This document shows, in pieces, positions 8,598 to 53,721 of a stretch of 64,000 bases of DNA. The translations under genes and the position numbers were made by a program. The notes beneath the pieces were generated by a model. That model saw only the letters and a program-made list of their open reading frames with translations. It was not told the DNA's origin and did no database searches. The DNA is from Alphaproteobacteria bacterium (GTDB lineage: Bacteria > Pseudomonadota > Alphaproteobacteria > Micropepsales > Micropepsaceae). Numbering within the stretch: position 1 is the stretch's first letter; every line of letters starts with the position of its first letter. Where the stretch lies: assembly GCA_019241645.1 (NCBI GenBank), contig JAFAWQ010000003.1, forward strand, positions 62,001 through 126,000, in the 5' to 3' direction.

Positions 8598-9788
8598 ATG
8601 TTCGAAGATTTGCGGCCGCGCCCGCCGGATCCCCTGCTCGATACCATTCGCCAGTTCCGCGCCGATCCGCGCGCCAGCAAGCTCGACCTCGGCGTCGGCG
8701 TCTATCAGGACGCCCAGGGCCGCACGCCGGTGCTGCGTTCTGTGAAGGATGCCGAGCGCCGCCTGCTGGAGACACAACAGACGAAAACCTATCTCGGCGC
8801 GGAAGGCGATCTCGACTATGCCCGCGCGCTGGGTGCGCTGGCGCTGGGTAACGACGTCGTCGGCGACGACACCGTGTTCGGCGTGCAGGCGCCGGGCGGC
8901 ACCGGCGCCTTGCGGCTGGGGGCGGAACTCATCCGCGCCGCCAACCCCCAAGCGCAGATCTGGCTCGGCCGCCCCAGCTGGGCCAATCACGATCCCATCT
9001 TCAACGCCGTCGGCGCCACCATCCGCGACTACCAGCATTTCAACGCGGAGAAGCAATCGGTCTGTTTCGATTCGCTGATGGCGGCGATGAAGGAGGCGAA
9101 CGCGGGCGACGTGTTCGTGCTGCACGCCGCCTGCCACAACCCCACCGGCGCGGATTTCAGCATGGAAGAGTGGCAGGAGATCGCACAGGCACTGTTGCGC
9201 TACCGGCTCGTTCCTTTCCTAGATACCGCGTATCAGGGTTTCGCGCGCGGGCTGGAGGAAGACATGGCAGGCGCGCGGTTGGTGTTTCGTGCCGTGCCTG
9301 AGGCTTTCGTGTCTGTCTCGTGCTCGAAGAATTTCGGCCTGTATCGCGAGCGCACCGGCGCCCTGTTCGTGCGCGCCTCCGACGCGGCGAAAGCGGACTC
9401 CGTGCGCTCGAATGTGCTCGGCATCGCGCGCGCCAATTACTCCATGCCGCCGGATCACGGTGCCGCCATCGTACGCACCATTCTCAGCGAGACTGCGCTC
9501 CGCAGCATGTGGGAAGAGGAGCTGGTGGCGATGCGCGAGAGCCTGCAGGGCGTGCGCGCGCGGCTGGCGCGGTTGCGCGTCAACAGCATCGATTTCGCGC
9601 CGATCGCGCAGCAGAACGGCATGTTCGCCACCCTGCCCCTCACCAAAGCACAGGTGGCGAGGCTGAAGGACGAGCACGGGATCTACATGGCGCCGTCGGG
9701 CCGCATCAACATCGCCGGTCTGATGTCCGCCGATCTCGACTCCTTCGCCGCCGCCCTGCGCTCGGTGCTGGTCGACACGGCGGCATAA
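8598..9788 (+). CDS. tyrB: aromatic/aspartate aminotransferase (class I, TyrB/AspC type)
   Basis: This PLP-dependent enzyme transfers amino groups between aromatic or acidic amino acids and 2-oxo acids. The 396-residue protein has the family features: LDLGVGVYQD near the N-terminus, HAACHNPTGADFS, and the PLP lysine in SVSCSKNFGLYRERTGAL at about residue 244. The ATG at 8598 is preceded by GGAGAGAGG. Substrate choice between aromatic and aspartate cannot be read from the sequence. Its last 105 bases (9684-9788) have a 92 percent identical copy at 10707-10811, beyond the next toxin-antitoxin pair. Confidence 0.9.
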   Translation: MFEDLRPRPPDPLLDTIRQFRADPRASKLDLGVGVYQDAQGRTPVLRSVKDAERRLLETQQTKTYLGAEGDLDYARALGALALGNDVVGDDTVFGVQAPGGTGALRLGAELIRAANPQAQIWLGRPSWANHDPIFNAVGATIRDYQHFNAEKQSVCFDSLMAAMKEANAGDVFVLHAACHNPTGADFSMEEWQEIAQALLRYRLVPFLDTAYQGFARGLEEDMAGARLVFRAVPEAFVSVSCSKNFGLYRERTGALFVRASDAAKADSVRSNVLGIARANYSMPPDHGAAIVRTILSETALRSMWEEELVAMRESLQGVRARLARLRVNSIDFAPIAQQNGMFATLPLTKAQVARLKDEHGIYMAPSGRINIAGLMSADLDSFAAALRSVLVDTAA

Positions 9789-9845: not shown

Positions 9846-9851
9846 GGGTTG

Positions 9852-10190
9852 ATGGCACCGCGGCGCTCCGGATTTTCAGAACCCGAAGTTGGGGTAGTTG
9901 CGCTTGCAGAACGCCCTCCGCCCAGCGAGGCCAGAGGCAGCATCAATCTGCGAATCGAGACTGAAACTCGGCGGCTGATCGACGATGCCGCCGCCATCCT
10001 CGGTAAGACGCGCACTGAGTTCATGATTGAAAGTGCGCGGCGGGAAGCGGTTGATGTGCTGCTGGATCAACGACTCTTCTTGCTGGACGCCGAACGATAT
10101 GATGCGTTTGTCAGCGCGCTCGACAATCCACCCGCACCCGGGCCGAGACTGCGTTCACTGCTCCGCCGGGTTCCGGCATGGAAAAGGTAA
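9852..10190 (+). CDS. DUF1778 (TacA-type) antitoxin
   Basis: The 112-residue protein has a ribbon-helix-helix N-terminal core beginning SINLRIETETRRLIDDAAA and the DUF1778 continuation GKTRTEFMIESARREA, then an acidic and proline-rich tail that would neutralise the toxin (ERYDAFVSALDNPPAP). It overlaps the acetyltransferase gene behind it by 13 bases, as in TacA-TacT pairs. The family acts as DNA-binding autorepressor and as antidote. An in-frame TTG three bases upstream is a possible alternative start. Confidence 0.88.
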   Translation: MAPRRSGFSEPEVGVVALAERPPPSEARGSINLRIETETRRLIDDAAAILGKTRTEFMIESARREAVDVLLDQRLFLLDAERYDAFVSALDNPPAPGPRLRSLLRRVPAWKR

Positions 10191-10822
10191 CAGGCGGGCC
10201 GAAGGGTGGTCTCGCGCCGCCGGTTCCGCTCGTATCAGATCACGATCTGGCCGGGTTCGATTGCGGCGAGCCCGTGCTCAACGATTGGCTGCGGGAACGC
10301 GCCCTGGAAAACGAGAGCCGGTTCTCGCGGACATATGTCGTCTGTGACGGTAACAGGGTTGTTGCTTATTTCTGCATTTCCGCCGGAGCGGTGGAGCGCG
10401 CTGCCGTCCCAGGGAAGCTACGGCGCAACGCACCGGCCACAATTCCCGCCTCGGTGATCGGTCGGTTGGGGGTCAGCCGCGATCATACCGGCAAAGGCCT
10501 CGGCGCGGACATGCTGTCGGACGCGCTCCGCCGCATTGCCGTGGCCTCGCAGAGCATTGGCATCGGTGCAGTGCTGGTTCATGCGAAGAACGACGCCGCC
10601 AGGCGCTTCTATCTGAAGTGCGCCGAGTTCGTGGAATATCCGGAAGGCAGCCGCACCCTGTTTCTCCCCATCGAAACCGTAGTGGCTGCGTTGGTTGACC
10701 GGAGCATACATGGCGCCATCCGGCCGCATCAACATCGCCGGCCTGATGGCGGCCGATCTCGACTCCTTCGCCGCCGCCCTGCGCTCGGTGCTGGTCGACA
10801 CCGCAGCTTAAGGCGGCCCTGA
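10178..10822 (+). CDS. GNAT acetyltransferase toxin (TacT-like) with aberrant C-terminus
   Basis: TacT toxins acetylate the amino group of charged tRNAs and stop translation. The core of about 170 residues fits: FDCGEPVLNDWL near the N-terminus, acetyl-CoA loop GVSRDHTGKGLGADML, and the ARRFYLKCAEF tyrosine motif. The family normally ends soon after a segment like RTLFLPIETVVAAL. Here the frame has no stop at that point and runs from codon 177 into the displaced tail of the aminotransferase gene in a different frame, adding about 38 arginine-rich residues that have no family counterpart. Whether toxicity survives this extension is unknown. Confidence 0.85.
   Translation: MEKVTGGPKGGLAPPVPLVSDHDLAGFDCGEPVLNDWLRERALENESRFSRTYVVCDGNRVVAYFCISAGAVERAAVPGKLRRNAPATIPASVIGRLGVSRDHTGKGLGADMLSDALRRIAVASQSIGIGAVLVHAKNDAARRFYLKCAEFVEYPEGSRTLFLPIETVVAALVDRSIHGAIRPHQHRRPDGGRSRLLRRRPALGAGRHRSLRRP
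10707..10811 (+). pseudogene. displaced 3' tail of the aminotransferase gene
   Basis: These 105 bases align without gaps to 9684-9788, the last 34 codons and stop of tyrB. I count 8 mismatches (97 of 105 identical). Read in the tyrB frame, seven codons differ and six of them are synonymous; one changes Ser to Ala. Homology stops abruptly at the TAC codon on the left side. The remnant is not translated in its own frame now; the TacT frame reads through it. Confidence 0.9.
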
Positions 10823-16298: not shown

Positions 16299-16373
16299 TG
16301 GTAGCAGCGGAGGGATTTGAACCCCCGACCAAGGGATTATGATTCCCCTGCTCTACCACTGAGCTACGCTGCC
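16299..16373 (-). tRNA. tRNA-Met (CAT), elongator type
   Basis: The minus strand folds as a full cloverleaf of 75 bases including an encoded CCA: acceptor GGCAGCG with CGCTGCT, D-arm GCTC/GAGC, anticodon arm GGGGA-ATCATAA-TCCCT, and T-arm GGGGG-TTCAAAT-CCCTC. The anticodon is CAT. The acceptor pairs fully, which speaks against initiator tRNA. A loop starting with A at position 32 favours elongator Met over the lysidine-modified Ile2 tRNA, but the two are hard to separate by eye. Confidence 0.93.
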
Positions 16374-21305: not shown

Positions 21306-22010
21306 ATGCGTGTGCTTTTGATCGAAGATGATGGCGCCATGGCGCGCTCGATCGAGCTGATGCTTCGCTCCGAGGGCTTTAACGTTTACACGACCGACCT
21401 CGGCGAGGAAGGCATCGATCTCGGCAAGCTGTACGATTACGACATTGTCGTGCTCGACCTGCAGCTGCCGGACATGAGCGGCTTCGAGGTGCTGAAGTCC
21501 CTCCGGCTCGCCAAGGTGCAGACCCCCGTCATGATCCTGTCGGGCAATGCCATCGTGGAATCGAAGGTGAAGGCGCTGGGCTTCGGGGCCGATGATTACC
21601 TCACCAAGCCATTCCACAAGGATGAACTGGTGGCGCGCATCCAGGCCGTGGTGCGGCGTTCCAAGGGCCATTCGCAATCCGTCATCACCACCGGCAAGCT
21701 CACCGTCAACCTCGACGCCAAGACGGTGGAAGTGGACAGCCAGCGCGTGCACCTGACCGGCAAGGAATACCAGATGCTGGAGCTGCTTTCGCTGCGCAAG
21801 GGCACGACGCTGACCAAGGAGATGTTCCTCAATCATCTCTACGGCGGCATGGACGAGCCGGAGCTGAAGATCATCGACGTCTTCATCTGCAAGCTGCGCA
21901 AGAAGCTGGCGGCCGCCACCAATGGCGACAACTACATCGAAACGGTGTGGGGCCGCGGCTATGTGCTGCGCGATCCGGAGAACGAGAAGCCGGCCGCCGC
22001 GGCAGCCTGA
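21306..22010 (+). CDS. ctrA: cell cycle response regulator CtrA
   Basis: CtrA is the master response regulator of the alphaproteobacterial cell cycle. The 234-residue protein is nearly diagnostic: [20 protein letters not shown], the phospho-acceptor Asp at residue 51 in [14 protein letters not shown], the [25 protein letters not shown] block, and an OmpR-type winged helix ending [10 protein letters not shown]. The C-terminus ends in five alanines, matching the Ala-Ala degron used by ClpXP. A promoter region with GANTC lies upstream and an intrinsic terminator directly downstream. A 75-bp copy of its 3' end occurs at 23317-23391. Confidence 0.98.
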
Positions 22011-22033
22011 AAGCATTCTTTAAGCGGTCAAAC

Positions 22034-22064
22034 AAAAAGGGCGCTTACAATGGGCGCCCTTTTT
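22034..22064 (+). terminator. intrinsic terminator of ctrA
   Basis: AAAAAGGGCGC at 22034-22044 pairs perfectly with GCGCCCTTTTT at 22054-22064 around a nine-base loop, and the T-run continues into TTGGTTTT. It lies 24 bases behind the ctrA stop. Confidence 0.85.
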
Positions 22065-22101
22065 GGTTTTGTGCCTGATGCGAACTTACGTTGGCTGGCG
22101 T

Positions 22102-23211
22102 CTATTGCGGCGCAAACACGGAGACCGTCGATCCTGCATTCACGATCAGCGCACCTTGTCCGGCACTCAGAGCATCGATTGATGCTCCCACATTCGTCGA
22201 CCAAAGTTTCTTGCCCTTGCCGGAATCCAGCGCGAACAGCATGCCGGAGCCCGAGCCCACGTAGACGACACCGTTCACCACGACAGGCAGGCCTCTAAGG
22301 TCGCCGTCGCCCGTAAAACTCCACGTGACGTTCTGCGTCTTGTATCCCCAGCAATAAAGCTTCCCGTCGACGAGAGAAAGGCCTTGGCCCTTTCCCTTCG
22401 AATTGGTGAAGAGGCCGGGCGTGGCGTTGCCGGCATACGTACCGACGATATCGCCGGTGCTGGCGTTCAGGACGTAATTGCCGTTCGCCCAGTCCTGAAT
22501 AAATACGCGTTTGCCATAATATGAAGGAGTGGCGCCACCGCCGCCCTCGCAGCCTCCGCTGTAGTGCCACAGCAATTTTCCATCCGTGGCAAATTTGTAA
22601 AATTGGCACGGGTACGAGACGTAAAGTCCGCCATCGCCGTAAGCAGGTGAACTGTCATCGCCATTCTCCACCCCGGCCGTCCATTGAACGTGGCCGTTGC
22701 TTTCGTCCACGCCGTAGACGGTACCACCGCTGCCTGCGCCTCCGGTAAACACTTGGCCGCCGATCGCGGTGGGCGGCGACGAGAACGCATACTGACCGGG
22801 CAGTTGTACTGACCAGTTGACCTTGCCGGACAGCGATTTCAGCGCGGTCATTGTGCCGCCGAAGCTCACAAAGAACAGCTGGCCGTTGTCGTATGCGGCG
22901 CCAATGCTGTCGCCAAGGAGATGCTCCCACTTCGTCTTGCCGGTGATCAGGTTAAGGGCAAACACATCGTTTCGGTTCGCGGTTTCGAACACCATGCCAT
23001 CCGCGACCAGCGGATATGAAAGCGAAGCCTTGAGGTCCTTGCTCCAAACCTTCGCCAATGGAGGTGCAAATCCCGCGGCAAAGTTCATTTCTCCGGAGTG
23101 GGCCGGAGTGATCTGGTAGGTTACCGCATATTCGCTTTGGTCTGCCGCGTTGGCAGCGGTGACCGGCACCGTGCAAGCAAGCAGGCCAGCACACAACAAT
23201 GTAGATTTCAC
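22102..23211 (-). CDS. secreted PQQ-like beta-propeller protein
   Basis: The 369-residue product has a signal peptide (cleavage near VTAANA, residue 22) and a series of PQQ/YWTD-type propeller blades, each with a GxVYA or LYAL-type core and a conserved Trp: VFALNLITGKTKWEHLLG, MTALKSLSGKVNWSVQL, VYGVDESNGHVQWTAG, LFALDSGKGKKLWSTNVG. The usual quinoprotein catalytic residues are not evident, so a structural or binding role is more likely. The start is GTG at 23211 with GGGGGAT before it. It sits between ctrA and the displaced ctrA tail. Confidence 0.75.
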   Translation of the reverse strand: MKSTLLCAGLLACTVPVTAANAADQSEYAVTYQITPAHSGEMNFAAGFAPPLAKVWSKDLKASLSYPLVADGMVFETANRNDVFALNLITGKTKWEHLLGDSIGAAYDNGQLFFVSFGGTMTALKSLSGKVNWSVQLPGQYAFSSPPTAIGGQVFTGGAGSGGTVYGVDESNGHVQWTAGVENGDDSSPAYGDGGLYVSYPCQFYKFATDGKLLWHYSGGCEGGGGATPSYYGKRVFIQDWANGNYVLNASTGDIVGTYAGNATPGLFTNSKGKGQGLSLVDGKLYCWGYKTQNVTWSFTGDGDLRGLPVVVNGVVYVGSGSGMLFALDSGKGKKLWSTNVGASIDALSAGQGALIVNAGSTVSVFAPQ

Positions 23212-23316
23212 GTGATCCCCCTCTTAATGCCCGCGCGCAGACAACAGTGTTTGGATTCCTAAGTCAAACCCTCTTAATTCTCTTCGGACGACAACTACTT
23301 ATTTTGGCAAATGCTA

Positions 23317-23391
23317 ATCGAAACGGTGTGGGGCCGCGGCTATGTGTTGCGCGATCCGGAGAACTAGAAGCCCGCCGCCGCGGCAGCATAG
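23317..23391 (+). pseudogene. displaced 3' tail of ctrA
   Basis: These 75 bases match 21936-22010, the last 24 codons and stop of ctrA, with 6 mismatches and no gap. In the ctrA frame it reads [16 protein letters not shown], then a nonsense codon (GAG to TAG), then KPAAAAA and a TAG stop in place of TGA. The other changes are synonymous. Homology breaks off on the left after the first ATC codon. It is untranslated debris but indicates a former ctrA end. The rest of the 359-base gap up to 23570 has no gene. Confidence 0.9.
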
Positions 23392-23570: not shown

Positions 23571-24596
23571 TCAGCGCACGGTCCAGGGAATGGGGTTGCG
23601 AACGTAGCCGTGCGTTAAGCCGTCCGATGTCACATAGTCGCCGGCTACAGATCCCACACTGTTGATCGCGTTCCAGAAGCTGCTGACGGCGCCCGGCGGG
23701 TTGAAAGTGAGGAGCCGACCGCTACCCGAACGGATAAAGCTATGGTTGAGGATCGACTTGTTGTCACTCCAGGTACCGGCGACCGCGCCGTGAATGTTAA
23801 TGCCGCGTGGATAGGTTGCGAGCGAGCCGGGGGGATCGAATAACGTCAGTGTCCCGTCCGCCGCGCGAACGAAACCGTGCCGCTCGCCGCCCACCACAAA
23901 ATAGTTGCCGGCAATCGCGTTCTTCGCATTGATGACCAGACCCGAAGTACTCAAGCTGCCTGGAACATCGAAGCTCGTGACGTTTCCCTGAGCGTCCCGC
24001 AGGAAGCCGTGCCCCGCATACGACTGATCCACAATCAGTCCGGTAATCGAGCCATTATTGGCAATCGCGGCCGGAAGGGTGCTGTAGCCTGCATCGAAGA
24101 TTGTGATCTGTCCATCGGCCGTTCTCAAAAGGCCATGCTGCACATCGCTGGAAAAGCCGGCCAGCACGGTGCCCGCATTGTTGATCCCGTAGACCGTAAA
24201 GAACGACGAGCCGGCCGGCGGATCGTAGGTGATCACAGTGCCATCGGCGGCGCGAATGAAGCCCCATGGTCCTTGTGAGCCCTGACAGGCGTAGTAGTAA
24301 CCTGCGACATCTCCCGCATCGTTGATACCGGCGACCACTGCCCTGCTGAGGCCGAGCGTTCCCTGCGGATCGAATTTGGTTATCGTTCCATCCGGGGCGC
24401 GCACGAAGCCTTGCTCGCATCCGTTGGCGACATGGTATTGGCCCGCGATCGTGCCGTCGCGGTTGATGCCTTTCGGGCCCGTGTAAGTAGCTCCCGGCAC
24501 GTCGAAAGTCGTGATGGTTGTGGCGTGTGCCGGCAGTTGCGGCGCCGAAAGAGCAAGTGCGGCTGCGACCTGCGCAATCGAAATGATGGATTTCAT
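23571..24596 (-). CDS. secreted HAF-like repeat protein
   Basis: The 341-residue product has a signal peptide (cleavage near AHA, residue 25) and about seven repeats of roughly 40 residues. Each repeat has the pattern GIN-x-x-G-x-V/I-AG-x-Y/F, then GFVRAxDGTITxFDPPG, for example GINDAGDVAGYYYACQ and GFVRAADGTLTLFDPPG. This is the extracellular HAF-type repeat of unknown function. An AGGAGG ribosome binding site precedes the ATG. A related protein lies at 40630-41658 on the other strand. Confidence 0.78.
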   Translation of the reverse strand: MKSIISIAQVAAALALSAPQLPAHATTITTFDVPGATYTGPKGINRDGTIAGQYHVANGCEQGFVRAPDGTITKFDPQGTLGLSRAVVAGINDAGDVAGYYYACQGSQGPWGFIRAADGTVITYDPPAGSSFFTVYGINNAGTVLAGFSSDVQHGLLRTADGQITIFDAGYSTLPAAIANNGSITGLIVDQSYAGHGFLRDAQGNVTSFDVPGSLSTSGLVINAKNAIAGNYFVVGGERHGFVRAADGTLTLFDPPGSLATYPRGINIHGAVAGTWSDNKSILNHSFIRSGSGRLLTFNPPGAVSSFWNAINSVGSVAGDYVTSDGLTHGYVRNPIPWTVR

Positions 24597-24684: not shown

Positions 24685-26226
24685 TCAGTCGTCATGCGGC
24701 CGTCGGCCCTTGGAAATGACTGCTGCTGCGGTTCCGTCGAAGGCGGGTTTCAGTTTGAAGTCTGGATGCAGCGATGCGTAGGCCGGCCGCGGACTGTGCC
24801 GTCGGTAAATCGCATTCGAGCCGCCATCGAGGGCGTAGGCCGTCAATTGGTCGGCCGTGTTGAAGTAAACCGTGCCATCCACGACGATAGGCGGAACGCC
24901 TACATATCCGCCGGCCGCGGCTGTCCAAAGCACGCTTCCTGTCCGCGCGTCGAAAGCAAAAAGCTTGAGGTCGTCACAGCCCGCGAAAACCACGCCATTG
25001 GCAACAGCCGGCCTGCGGGCAACGCCGGATCCGGTGCTCGCGGTCCACAGCAAAGTCCCGCTTCCAGCGTCGAATGCGTATAGCTTCTTGTCTCCACAAG
25101 TAAGGTAGACCATGCCGTTGCCAACGGCCGGATCGTAGCAGGTGGACCCTCCCGTGTTGGCAGTCCAGAGCGTGCTTCCGGTCTGCGCATTGAAGGCGTA
25201 GAGCTTTCCGTCGATTTGTGACGCGTATACGATGCCATTCGAAACAACGGGGCTGCCGTAGCTGTTATCGACAAAGGCCGTCCACCGGACGCTGCCCGTC
25301 GCCGCATCGAGGGCGACAACGTTGCCTAGGTAAGTCACTCCATAGACAAGGCCGTTGGCGGCAGCGATGGCGCCCCCTTGGGTCATCACGTCGCCCGGCG
25401 CGAGGTTGTAGGACCATTTTACCGCGCCGTTGCTCGCGTCCAGGGCGTACAAGATGCCGTCGCTGGTATCGCTCGCAGTGGCAACGACGACGATGTTCGC
25501 ATTGTTCACGATGGTCGGCGACGTGAAACCGCCGGCCGGGGCGGTAAATCGCCAGGCTTCGTTGTGAGTGTCCAAATTGACCGCGTGAACGACGCCGGAA
25601 AAATCGCCGAGATATAAGTAGTAGCCATTCGTCGAAAGGGCCGGCGTCCCCATTCCAAAGCTATCGAAATAGGCTTGCCACTCCTCCTGCCCGGAGTCCG
25701 CATCCAGCACGACCACGCCATAAATGTTGGGAACGTAAAGATGACCCTTCACGATGCTGGGTGCGTCGTAACTGGCCTTGAGGGAATCCGTCCAAAATGT
25801 ATCCAACGTCTTGGCGTTGTCTGTCGCGATGACATTTTCATACGGGTTTAGACTCTTCGCCTGGGGAACAAAACCGATCTGAGGCCAGTCCGTGCGCACC
25901 CGAAACGAGACCTGGTCGGCAATGCCGTCCCGCCGCCCGATGGCCGTGACCCAGTGCGTCCCGGGCGTTGCGCTAGCCGGGATCCTCAGATTGTAACCCG
26001 AAAACCGGCCGGCTTTATCGGTGACGGCGAGCAGCACATCGGCAGTATCGAAATAGATGTCCACCGCTTCCTTTGCGCCGAACCCCCGACCGTCGATGAA
26101 GACCTTGAGTTTGGGATGGCCGCCATCGGGCGATACGGTGACTTTGGCGGAACCTTGAGCAAGGCCGGGGCCCATACAGAACAACATCGCGGCTGCGATC
26201 TGTGGAACTGTTGCAAGGCGTTTCAT
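24685..26226 (-). CDS. secreted protein, Ig-like domain plus PQQ-like propeller
   Basis: The 513-residue protein has a signal peptide (cleavage near GLA, residue 23), a beta-sandwich of about 100 residues (KVTVSPDGGHPKLKVFIDGRGFG to GTHWVTAIGRRDG), and then a PQQ-type propeller. Blades repeat the form LYAFNAQTGSTLWTANTGG, LYAFDAGSGTLLWTASTG, LFAFDARTGSVLWTAAAGG with intervening PAVGNGMVYL. ATG 26226 follows an AGGAGG site. The near-identical blades point to recent internal duplication. Function is unknown; it is probably exported to the periplasm or surface. Confidence 0.78.
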   Translation of the reverse strand: MKRLATVPQIAAAMLFCMGPGLAQGSAKVTVSPDGGHPKLKVFIDGRGFGAKEAVDIYFDTADVLLAVTDKAGRFSGYNLRIPASATPGTHWVTAIGRRDGIADQVSFRVRTDWPQIGFVPQAKSLNPYENVIATDNAKTLDTFWTDSLKASYDAPSIVKGHLYVPNIYGVVVLDADSGQEEWQAYFDSFGMGTPALSTNGYYLYLGDFSGVVHAVNLDTHNEAWRFTAPAGGFTSPTIVNNANIVVVATASDTSDGILYALDASNGAVKWSYNLAPGDVMTQGGAIAAANGLVYGVTYLGNVVALDAATGSVRWTAFVDNSYGSPVVSNGIVYASQIDGKLYAFNAQTGSTLWTANTGGSTCYDPAVGNGMVYLTCGDKKLYAFDAGSGTLLWTASTGSGVARRPAVANGVVFAGCDDLKLFAFDARTGSVLWTAAAGGYVGVPPIVVDGTVYFNTADQLTAYALDGGSNAIYRRHSPRPAYASLHPDFKLKPAFDGTAAAVISKGRRPHDD

Positions 26227-26405
26227 GATGCCCTCCTGCACCGTAAGGTGCTTCTTCGATTGACCGGCGCCTGTTCAGCCAGCGGCCGCGGCGGCGCGAC
26301 AGGAACCGACGCCGTCCTGTCCGACTGCTTTTGCGGCCTCGGCACCGCCGCGGCGGTTCTGGAGCCCCGGCGGTGCGTTGATCGAGCGTACGATTGCCGC
26401 CGCGA

Positions 26406-31246: not shown

Positions 31247-31274
31247 TTGATTTTCTACCATTTCGTGGTAGAGC
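31247..31274 (+). promoter_or_regulatory. candidate operator-promoter of vapBC
   Basis: A perfect inverted repeat CTACCA-TTTCG-TGGTAG lies at 31255-31271, nine bases before the vapB ATG. TTGATT at 31247-31252 could be a -35 and TAGAGC at 31269-31274 a poor -10. VapB proteins repress their own operon, so the repeat is a plausible binding site. Confidence 0.5.
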
Positions 31275-31279
31275 GCCCT

Positions 31280-31579
31280 ATGGGCCTAAATATCAAAAAC
31301 GCGGACGTAGAAACCAATATCCGCAAATTGGCTGATAGAACGGGAGAAAGCCTTACCGACGCGGTGGATCGCGCCGTGCGCGAGAAGTTGGCTCGCTTGG
31401 AAAACGAGGCGCCGCGGATCGCGCCTGCTAGGACGGCCGATGAGTTCCTCAGGGCCATTAAACCCCTACAGGATTCGATTGCGCGGGAACGTCAAGCGCG
31501 CGGTGACACACGCTCCGTTCGGCAGGTCCTTCGGGAGGCAGACGAAAATTTCTATGACGACCACGGCCTGCCGAAGTGA
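31280..31579 (+). CDS. vapB: VapB-type antitoxin
   Basis: The 99-residue protein opens with MGLNIKNADVETNIRKLADRTGESLTDAVDRAVREKL-type sequence typical of the Rv0623-like VapB family (beta strand then helices for DNA binding) and ends in an acidic-basic tail, VRQVLREADENFYDDHGLPK, that would wrap the toxin. Its stop overlaps the GTG of the PIN-domain gene by four bases. Confidence 0.9.
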   Translation: MGLNIKNADVETNIRKLADRTGESLTDAVDRAVREKLARLENEAPRIAPARTADEFLRAIKPLQDSIARERQARGDTRSVRQVLREADENFYDDHGLPK

Positions 31580-31962
31580 TCGTTCTAGACACGTCGGTGT
31601 TGATTTCGATTCTGCTTCGCTCGCCGGATCTGAAGACACTATCCAGGAGACTTTTCAGCGACACAGATCGAAGGATATCCGCCGTCTCGGTCGTTGAAGC
31701 GACCATGGTCCTGTCACGCAATCATGCTGACCCGCAGGACCTGCTGTCAAAACACTTTGCGCATGCAGCCATTTCCGTAATTCCAGTCGATCAGGACCAC
31801 ATACGATGGGCGCAGATCGCCTTCATGAAGTTTGGCAAGGGCCGCCATCCCGCTCGGCTGAATTTCGGAGATTGTTTTTCCTACGCAGCCGCGAAGGTGT
31901 TGAACGCACGACTGCTGTTTGTCGGCGAGGATTTTTCCCAGACAGATATCCGCGCAGCATGA
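31576..31962 (+). CDS. vapC: VapC family PIN-domain ribonuclease toxin
   Basis: The 128-residue PIN protein has the acidic active-site residues in order: VLDTSVLISILL (Asp near residue 5), AVSVVEATMVL (Glu near 41), LNFGDCFSYAAAKV (Asp near 99) and GEDFSQTDI near the end. PIN toxins cut specific RNAs. The start is GTG 31576, overlapping vapB. It ends three bases before the convergent priA stop. Confidence 0.92.
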   Translation: MIVLDTSVLISILLRSPDLKTLSRRLFSDTDRRISAVSVVEATMVLSRNHADPQDLLSKHFAHAAISVIPVDQDHIRWAQIAFMKFGKGRHPARLNFGDCFSYAAAKVLNARLLFVGEDFSQTDIRAA

Positions 31963-52290: not shown

Positions 52291-52446
52291 TAGTTAGTGT
52301 GTTTTCTGGTACCTGGAAGTCGTCAAGCCACAGTTGAAAAGTCAGGTTCTACTTGAGTTTACAACGGCTTAGCGTATGACTTATACTGCTTGAGCAATCC
52401 GCTGTGTCACCCTGCGGTGTGTACATGGTTTGACTTTCGAAGGCTC

Positions 52447-53721
52447 ATGCCAACATTGAAAATCGGACGACGAACGGTCGCCAACCTTCCTGCGGTTGAG
52501 CACACAACTCTCTTTTACGATTCCGATCTGAAGGGTTTTGGCATCCGGGTAATGCCGTCGGGAGTTCGGAGCTACATCATCAGCTATCGTGTTGCGCCGG
52601 GCGGCCGAAAGGCCCCTACCCGCCGAATGAGTTTGGGGCGGGTCGAACTCGTTACGCCAGAAAAGGCCCGAGAGAAGGCCCGTGATCTGTTGGCCCGGGC
52701 TCGCTTGGGTGAAGATCCGGCCGCGGATCGCGCCGAGGCCAGGAAGGCCGCGACCGTAACCGAGTTATTGCCACGCTATAACGCCGAGACGGGAGCTGGC
52801 CGGCGGGAGAGCACCCGCAAGCTCTATGAGATGTACTGGCGGGTCCACATCTTGCCCGCGATCGGGTCGAAACGCGCGCGCCACGTGACCTATTCGGACG
52901 TTGCCGGGCTGCATCAAAAGATCGGACAGAAATCGCCGCCGACCGCAAATCGGGTTCTGGTTGCCTTGGCCTGCTTCTTCGATTGGGCGCGGCGGATTGG
53001 TGAGCGTCCGGCTGGAGAGAACCCGGCGCGCGATATCGAGAAATTTCAAGAGGAGCCTCGCGAGCGTTTTCTCACGAGTGAGGAACTCGGCAGGCTCGGA
53101 GCAGCGATCCATGAGGCTGAAACCATCGGCCTCCCCTGGGAGCCTGACCCGAACAAGAAGGTCAAGCATTGTCAGAAAAATCACCGCACGAAAATAGATT
53201 CGTTATCGGCGGCAGCGCTGCGCCTCATACTGTTTAGCGGCGCTCGTCACCGCGAGATCCTCCATGCGAAACGAGCGGAGCTTGATCGGCAGCGCGGCTT
53301 TCTGAATTTGGCACGGAGTAAGACCGGGAAGAAGACGATCGTTCTGAACGCATTGGCGTTGGCGGTGATCGATACCATTCCCGATACGGGGCCGTATCTG
53401 TTTCCGGGCACTGAGAAGCCGCAGTGTTCGAAGAAGGACAAATGGGAGCCGAAGCCACGGACGAGCCTGAAGCGTGCATGGACCGCAATACGCAAACGTG
53501 CAGGGTTGGAAGATGTTCGCATCCATGATCTGCGTCACACGTTCGCCAGCGTTGGCGTTGCAGAAAATCTCGGTCTGCCGGTGGTCGGCAAGCTGCTAGG
53601 TCACGCCAACCTAGTTTCTACGGCGCGCTACGCACATCTTGAAGCCGATCCGGCGCGCCGCGCTTCGAACGCCATCGGCCAATCGATTGCAAATGCACTG
53701 AACAGCGGAGTCGCTGCATGA
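52447..53721 (+). CDS. int: tyrosine-type site-specific integrase
   Basis: The 424-residue protein has the Arm-DNA-binding N-terminus (DUF4102-like: LFYDSDLKGFGIRVMPSGVRSYII), a SAM-like core-binding domain (about 110-200) and a catalytic domain with Arg in FSGARHREILHAK (about 265), Lys in RSKTGKKTI, His-x-x-Arg in HDLRHTFASV (about 359-362), His in LLGHANLVSTARYAHL and Tyr in it (about 395). It lies 156 bases from the tRNA-Arg fragment. Its stop overlaps the next gene (ATGA at 53718-53721), which suggests coupled translation. Confidence 0.95.
   Translation: MPTLKIGRRTVANLPAVEHTTLFYDSDLKGFGIRVMPSGVRSYIISYRVAPGGRKAPTRRMSLGRVELVTPEKAREKARDLLARARLGEDPAADRAEARKAATVTELLPRYNAETGAGRRESTRKLYEMYWRVHILPAIGSKRARHVTYSDVAGLHQKIGQKSPPTANRVLVALACFFDWARRIGERPAGENPARDIEKFQEEPRERFLTSEELGRLGAAIHEAETIGLPWEPDPNKKVKHCQKNHRTKIDSLSAAALRLILFSGARHREILHAKRAELDRQRGFLNLARSKTGKKTIVLNALALAVIDTIPDTGPYLFPGTEKPQCSKKDKWEPKPRTSLKRAWTAIRKRAGLEDVRIHDLRHTFASVGVAENLGLPVVGKLLGHANLVSTARYAHLEADPARRASNAIGQSIANALNSGVAA

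Follow-up and report, generated by a model that had tools for sequence, protein, structure and literature searches.

Why does the end of ctrA occur twice in this genome, with a gene for a secreted propeller protein between the two copies, and does this arrangement affect the CtrA protein? The question is raised by a stretch of 64,000 nt from an alphaproteobacterium of the Micropepsaceae (here called the window). The initial annotation had described positions 23317-23391 as a copy of the last 24 codons and the stop codon of ctrA (21936-22010) with 69 of 75 identical positions, and these coordinates and counts were correct. In a repeat search of the window the two segments were recovered as 21936-22006 versus 23317-23387 with 96% identity, while no repeats of at least 50 nt and at least 85% identity were present in 20 Markov-shuffled windows. 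When the 75-nt tail was searched against the whole 2.87-Mb genome, it was found in these two places only. The six differences over the 75 nt fall into five codons. Codon comparison agrees with the annotated view that the changes are synonymous or stop-to-stop, with a single nonsense codon as exception: three are synonymous (working to displaced copy CTG>TTG, CCG>CCC and GCC>GCA), one exchanges the stop codon (TGA>TAG) and one is a nonsense change (GAG>TAG). Positions 23289-23298 (CGACAACTAC) represent an exact 10-nt match to the ctrA sequence just upstream of 21936, and the duplication may therefore start a little further upstream. Eighteen extra in-frame bases separate this match from the displaced tail, and words of 12-17 nt from these bases and their edges have a single occurrence in the window. 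The tail repeat and the gene order at ctrA are real, and they exemplify a type of gene insertion that has been described before. The features of this locus are listed in Table 1, together with those of a second case in the same window.

Table 1. Features of the ctrA locus and of the aminotransferase locus (positions within the window).
Feature	Position	Strand	Basis or remark
ctrA, 234 aa, intact	21306-22010	+	Response_reg and Trans_reg_C; 92-97% identity to CtrA of 29 relatives
Proximal (working) ctrA tail, 24 codons and TGA	21936-22010	+	Repeat search, codon comparison
Strong intrinsic terminator-like hairpin with T run, directly 3′ of ctrA	22033-22065 (lax scan); 22036-22062 (strict scan)	+	
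Cargo: secreted PQQ_2/BamB-like beta-propeller, 369 aa, convergent with ctrA	22102-23211	-	Pfam
A+T-rich upstream side of the propeller gene	23212-23288	-	No match in other genus genomes
10-nt ctrA match and 18 additional in-frame bases at the border of the duplication	23289-23316	+	
Distal (displaced) ctrA tail with 69 of 75 identities, an internal TAG and TAG as last codon	23317-23391	+	
Class I/II aminotransferase gene; working tail 9684-9788	8598-9788	+	PF00155, 1e-66
Cargo: TacA-type antitoxin	9849-10190	+	PF08681, 2e-25
Cargo: GNAT (TacT-like) toxin; frame continues out of phase into the displaced tail	10178-10822	+	
Displaced aminotransferase tail, 92% identical, homology stops at the stop codon	10707-10812	+	

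A cargo consisting of a secreted propeller gene and a terminator had been annotated between the tails, and both elements were confirmed; secretion of the propeller was judged by inspection of its signal-like N-terminus. The DNA between the tails (22011-23316) has a G+C content of 56.5%, compared to 61.2% for the window. It contains the PQQ_2 gene alone and no transposase or integrase gene. Apart from the terminator hairpin and a single internal pair, the insert has no inverted repeats of at least 14 nt, and its two termini lack them. No functions for mobility are encoded by the cargo. Behind the displaced tail no strict terminator is present within 180 nt.

At E ≤ 1e-60, 67 of 81 genomes had a CtrA match, and this genome had exactly one. 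We compared the ctrA locus of this genome to those of 29 relatives, all from the same genus, for which the flank behind ctrA was longer than 1.4 kb in 27 cases (L014 153 bp, L030 660 bp). In the flank available, none of the 29 relatives had a displaced ctrA tail or a propeller match downstream of ctrA; the sole downstream tail-like matches, of 19 and 24 nt, were in L022. The gene downstream of ctrA varies among the relatives. As named by inspection of translations, SMP-30-like genes are commonest and others include an ABC transporter and an mtnA-like gene. Conservation of the terminator had been suggested as a check and was confirmed: a strict terminator is located at most 60 nt from the ctrA stop codon in 25 of the 29 relatives versus 11 of 1000 random window positions. 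A lax scan was uninformative (matches at 111 of 200 random positions), and the strict scan was therefore used. A 359-nt junction query, with the best ten candidates scored per genome, had matches in 62 of 68 other genus genomes, always through its ctrA-tail part (query positions 102-171), and the only other match, of 25 nt, was at another place in G015. The sequences on either side of the displaced tail had no match in the 68 genomes. Propeller matches at E ≤ 1e-20 were obtained in three of these 68 genomes with at best 59% identity, and the closest propeller, in G035, is encoded on another contig than ctrA, at least 60 kb away.

These comparisons leave the annotated insertion model as the best reading, with all 29 relatives lacking the displaced tail, while the uninterrupted state of this species was not found. 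The initial annotation had suggested a test of whether relatives without the propeller gene have the distal type of tail joined to ctrA: in the flank available a single ctrA tail is present in all 29, but none of the 68 genomes has the flank on the 23392 side. A wider set comprised 80 named ctrA loci (1.17 Mb), of which the seven best have 92-95% CtrA identity and the rest are from other alphaproteobacteria; relatives among the named CtrA records include UBA1301, palsa_914 and REEB202. A somewhat looser scan gave repeat pairs in eight of these loci, and in L067, L076, L100 and L120 one of the repeat copies reaches the 3′ terminus of a predicted ORF. Judging by these four loci, displaced gene ends may also occur outside the genus.

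The initial annotation had also pointed to the same displaced-tail arrangement elsewhere, and indeed a similar 106-nt repeat is present at 9684-9789/10707-10812. Here the last 105 nt of an aminotransferase gene are repeated at 92% identity beyond a TacA antitoxin and a GNAT toxin, and no integrase lies between the repeats. The frame of the GNAT toxin has no stop codon of its own before the displaced tail, so that the tail now encodes an extra C-terminus; matches to the GNAT toxins of most relatives end at about residues 165-190.

Direct repeats (at least 40 nt, at least 85% identity, 300-6000 nt apart) were surveyed in 864 kb of this genome, to which the window belongs, and in three relatives (600 kb each of G046 and G028, 400 kb of G081). 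This resulted in 29 direct-repeat pairs versus 4 inverted-repeat pairs under the same rule. The direct pairs were sorted by inspection of tables and for some pairs also of sequence: six pairs at four loci were kept (three loci in this genome, one in G028), and 23 were dropped as paralogues, within-gene repeats, shared domains or intergenic REP-like repeats. The 864 kb of this genome thus contain three loci with four insertions, and the 1.6 Mb of the three relatives contain one. The third locus of this genome lies on contig C43 (92.0-94.2 kb; L157:12016-14198), where the 106-121 nt head of a small gene without Pfam match is present in three copies with 87-98% identity. A PrlF/MazE-like-PIN pair and a Phd/YefM-PIN pair are located between these copies, apparently because two insertions took place at this site one after the other. 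In G028, an ABC-F type gene (two ABC_tran domains, ABC_tran_Xtn linker, ABC_tran_CTD) has its tail repeated at 90% identity beyond a SatD-family gene. In G085, a TacA/GNAT pair and a further gene separate a phosphotransferase-like gene (named by inspection) from its displaced tail of 84 nt with 88% identity. Displaced gene ends are thus present at three loci of this genome and in two other species. Among relatives' loci used as controls they were found in 0 of 29 for ctrA, 0 of 8 for the aminotransferase and 0 of 4 for the C43 gene. The homology ends at or within about 10 nt of the stop codon (ctrA, aminotransferase, G028, G085) or the start codon (C43 head), and the repeat boundaries look as if gene ends alone were shared.

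Screening by cargo gave fewer cases. None of 30 PIN loci from the genus, with up to 1.5 kb of flank, had flanking repeats, the two C43 PIN modules being outside these 30, and a displaced gene tail was present at 2 of 30 GNAT loci (L223 in this genome and L231 in G085). L248 and L252 had other repeats, that of L252 being a copy of the toxin's own end. Within the 16 GNAT-family loci of this genome only L145 has a displaced tail, and this is the aminotransferase case itself. Toxin-antitoxin cargo recurs, yet too rarely in these samples to prove enrichment, and it is not established as a general driver.

The presence of similar structures at other loci and in other genomes also bears on the quality of the assembly. 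This is a draft of 53 contigs, and strain variants might have been joined in it; the propeller-to-tail junction, however, shares just 10 nt with the ctrA context, which should be too little for a false join, and together with the other loci this makes an artefact extremely improbable.

The differences between the copies provide information on their origin. If the resident ctrA end had been duplicated locally in tandem, together with the DNA behind it, and the second copy of that DNA had later been lost, no other genome than the resident one would be required, and both tails carry this genome's own residues, which are found in none of the 29 relatives. After local copying and decay, most changes would be expected to alter the protein. 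Instead, the ctrA tails differ by four synonymous codons (including the stop-to-stop change), no missense and one nonsense codon (P=0.006). The synonymous-bias test covered three further loci and gave six synonymous and one missense codon for the aminotransferase tails (P=0.0009), six and two for the G028 ABC-F tails (P=0.004), and one and two, and thus no bias, for the C43 head copies (P=0.60). Because of the synonymous excess at three of the four loci, both copies at these loci seem to have been coding sequences in the past, in different genomes; purifying selection on the working copy after the insertion could be an extra source of synonymous changes. Local duplication is also opposed by the distal ctrA tail, which is followed by neither a terminator nor a repeated piece of the propeller gene, and by the displaced aminotransferase tail, which has relatives' states that are missing from the working tail. 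We therefore consider it very unlikely.

In the aminotransferase case the displaced tail shares TCC (codon 4) and Ala (codon 14) with G041 and G095, and the working tail is derived at these positions; at codon 3 (CCG) G095 agrees with the working tail instead. On balance, the displaced tail looks native and the working tail incoming. At ctrA, both polarisable changes are in the displaced copy: TTG, in place of the CTG found in all relatives but G035 (28 of 29), and the internal stop, which cannot be ancestral. Both are consistent with decay of the displaced copy and give no sign of which tail came in. The presence of both TTG and the closest propeller in G035 might be a hint of another history.

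Some integrase-borne elements target the 3′ end of a gene and restore it, as is reportedly the case for e14 at icd. Replacement tails with synonymous changes that end at the stop codon are typical of such integrase sites. The ctrA insert could be the remnant of an element of this kind, deleted down to one gene: its tails resemble those at integrase sites, and five Phage_integrase matches are present in the genome. Elements of this type carry an integrase gene, however, which is lacking between the repeats at ctrA and at the aminotransferase as well as among the predicted genes at C43 and in G028. Moreover, the targets are unrelated genes, one of them affected at its 5′ end in three copies, and the start of the closest tyrosine recombinase gene, XerC-like by inspection, is at a distance of about 11 kb. 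Considering these points, a remnant is unlikely.

The best reading is that the ctrA insertion belongs to the class known as insertion with long target duplication. This class was reportedly described by Nobusato in 2000 and Furuta in 2010 for restriction-modification genes in Helicobacter pylori and others. The accessible parts of three papers describe long, variable direct repeats "in the order of 100 bp" (PMC3874152, PMC1643837, PMC3031569); in the accessible parts of two more the pattern is only mentioned or cited (PMC2654758, PMC3154945). The repeats observed here have 71-75 nt at ctrA and 106 nt at the aminotransferase, and an insert without known mobile machinery and long direct repeats at both ends are common to this class and to the ctrA case. 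Unlike the restriction-modification cargo of the classical cases, the cargo is a propeller, a TacA/GNAT pair, PIN modules or SatD, and the repeats are gene ends with about 2-13% divergence between the copies, the differences being biased towards synonymous ones at three of the four loci tested. Two features stand out: the duplicated sequences are the ends of genes whose alleles have apparently diverged, and toxin-antitoxin pairs are found repeatedly among the inserts. In the literature searched, where most subscription papers were outside reach, neither TacA/GNAT pairs nor propeller genes were found flanked by a displaced gene end.

The divergence between the gene ends suggests related strains as donor and recipient, so that one half of the mechanism would be ordinary homologous recombination. 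With a probability of roughly 60%, an incoming fragment from a related strain was joined to ctrA homologously in the tail and non-homologously at its other end, after circularisation and by a single crossover. The short piece of DNA would have contained the donor's own ctrA end, its terminator and a propeller gene. As the simplest route, a linear fragment broken inside ctrA would have been circularised, the other end of the incoming piece providing the non-homologous join, and a single crossover in the resident tail, by homologous recombination within the last approximately 100 bp of the gene, would have provided ctrA with the incoming tail and terminator and pushed the old tail 1.3 kb away. 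The old tail would have been cut at the break point of the fragment and would be decaying there, as suggested by its nonsense codon. We infer donor, circle and direction at ctrA; since neither the donor nor the uninterrupted recipient arrangement was found (flanks of the 29 relatives; junction query in 68 genomes), the direction is taken by analogy with the aminotransferase case. The mechanism builds on direct observations, namely the repeat, the gene order, the single-copy relatives, the terminator behind the proximal tail only, the synonymous bias and four similar loci.

A related outcome is described in the accessible part of PMC3240628 for linear DNA with homology at one end: 56 of 60 Lac- clones gave a PCR product diagnostic of duplication, 14 sequenced clones had 109-950 bp of the lacZ end duplicated, and the authors interpreted this as a single crossover of a trimmed, recircularised plasmid. 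As in these clones, part of a gene's end is duplicated beside foreign DNA at our loci; there, laboratory plasmids in E. coli gave duplications of 109-950 bp, whereas the repeats here have 71-121 nt and are mostly below that range. One-sided repair would lead to the same product as the circle: a break in ctrA near codon 210 would invade a linear donor ctrA (homology-facilitated illegitimate recombination, HFIR, or break-induced copying), the donor tail, terminator and propeller would be copied, and the new end would be joined to the other side of the break. This has the observed geometry, and for Vibrio T6SS loci HFIR has been put forward to explain orphan genes and a shifted 3′ end (PMC5361080, accessible part). 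In these effector 3′ ends and immunity-gene arrays an incoming module likewise replaces the end, and the old end moves downstream; the same part of PMC5361080 describes a replaced end that alters function, while ctrA receives the same tail. In the accessible data of PMC3240628, however, only 4 of 60 clones apparently resulted from HFIR, for which a deletion is predicted, against the 56 duplications. One-sided repair is therefore a doubtful route, although the present evidence at our loci fits both routes alike.

Additive integration with a homologous ctrA side and a non-homologous other side, by circle crossover or one-sided repair, is the best reading of the locus. The insertion is favoured by the fact that the proximal tail, not the displaced one, precedes the usual terminator. 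Against it, the displaced tail would be expected to be followed by the resident terminator, which must have been lost; this is the main loose end. The lack of synonymous bias in the C43 head also speaks against it. In other species ctrA is essential. Only insertions that restore the end of ctrA should survive, so that selection would explain the insertion address. The ctrA event is most likely an insertion by an ordinary mechanism at an unusual address.

An influence of the insertion on CtrA proteolysis had been considered in the initial annotation for the case that the tails differ. Such an effect is not supported, and we reject it for the present genome, since the working tail has full length and an intact Ala-rich end, and both tails encode the same residues up to the nonsense codon of the displaced copy. 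The last two residues of 30 CtrA proteins, including this one, are AA in 18, VA in 9, AS in 2 and AV in 1; the working CtrA of this genome ends with Ala-Ala, as do 17 others. Deletion of the last three residues stabilised CtrA in Caulobacter and raised its level in Sinorhizobium (PMC4433202, accessible part); the accessible part of PMC6169604 just has references on these residues and CtrA turnover. As the last three residues matter for turnover, a shortened tail would have consequences, but it is the unused copy that is truncated. Only an excision left of repeat codon 17 would truncate CtrA.

These findings imply that accessory genes can settle beside an essential regulator without harm to the regulator, and a pattern described mainly for restriction-modification genes is now extended to toxin-antitoxin pairs and other cargo. 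For cell-cycle biology they advise caution, since the 3′ flank of ctrA is variable and the end of CtrA is kept. Rather speculatively, there might be a common additive route in this genus by which short accessory cassettes, often toxin-antitoxin pairs, enter the chromosome. The gene that is hit would retain a complete end in replaced form, and insertions would be tolerated even at essential genes such as ctrA. Loss of the insert left of repeat codon 17 would then result in CtrA minus its last eight residues and act as a built-in excision penalty.

A secreted-protein gene (23571-24596; no Pfam match over the cut-off, HAF-like repeats by inspection) lies 3′ of the displaced ctrA tail and is followed by a second secreted PQQ_2 propeller gene (24685-26241). 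Secreted propeller genes may thus tend to accumulate in the 3′ flank of ctrA. Elsewhere in the window, a tyrosine integrase gene (52390-53721, 443 aa, P4-like N-terminus by inspection) is located far from the sole tRNA gene, tRNA-Met at 16299-16373. An antitoxin-like/PIN toxin pair at 31247-31962 has no flanking repeat of at least 40 nt. With 28 PIN-domain matches this genome (G000) has the most of the 69 genus genomes, followed by G041 with 23 and G034 and G095 with 19 each.
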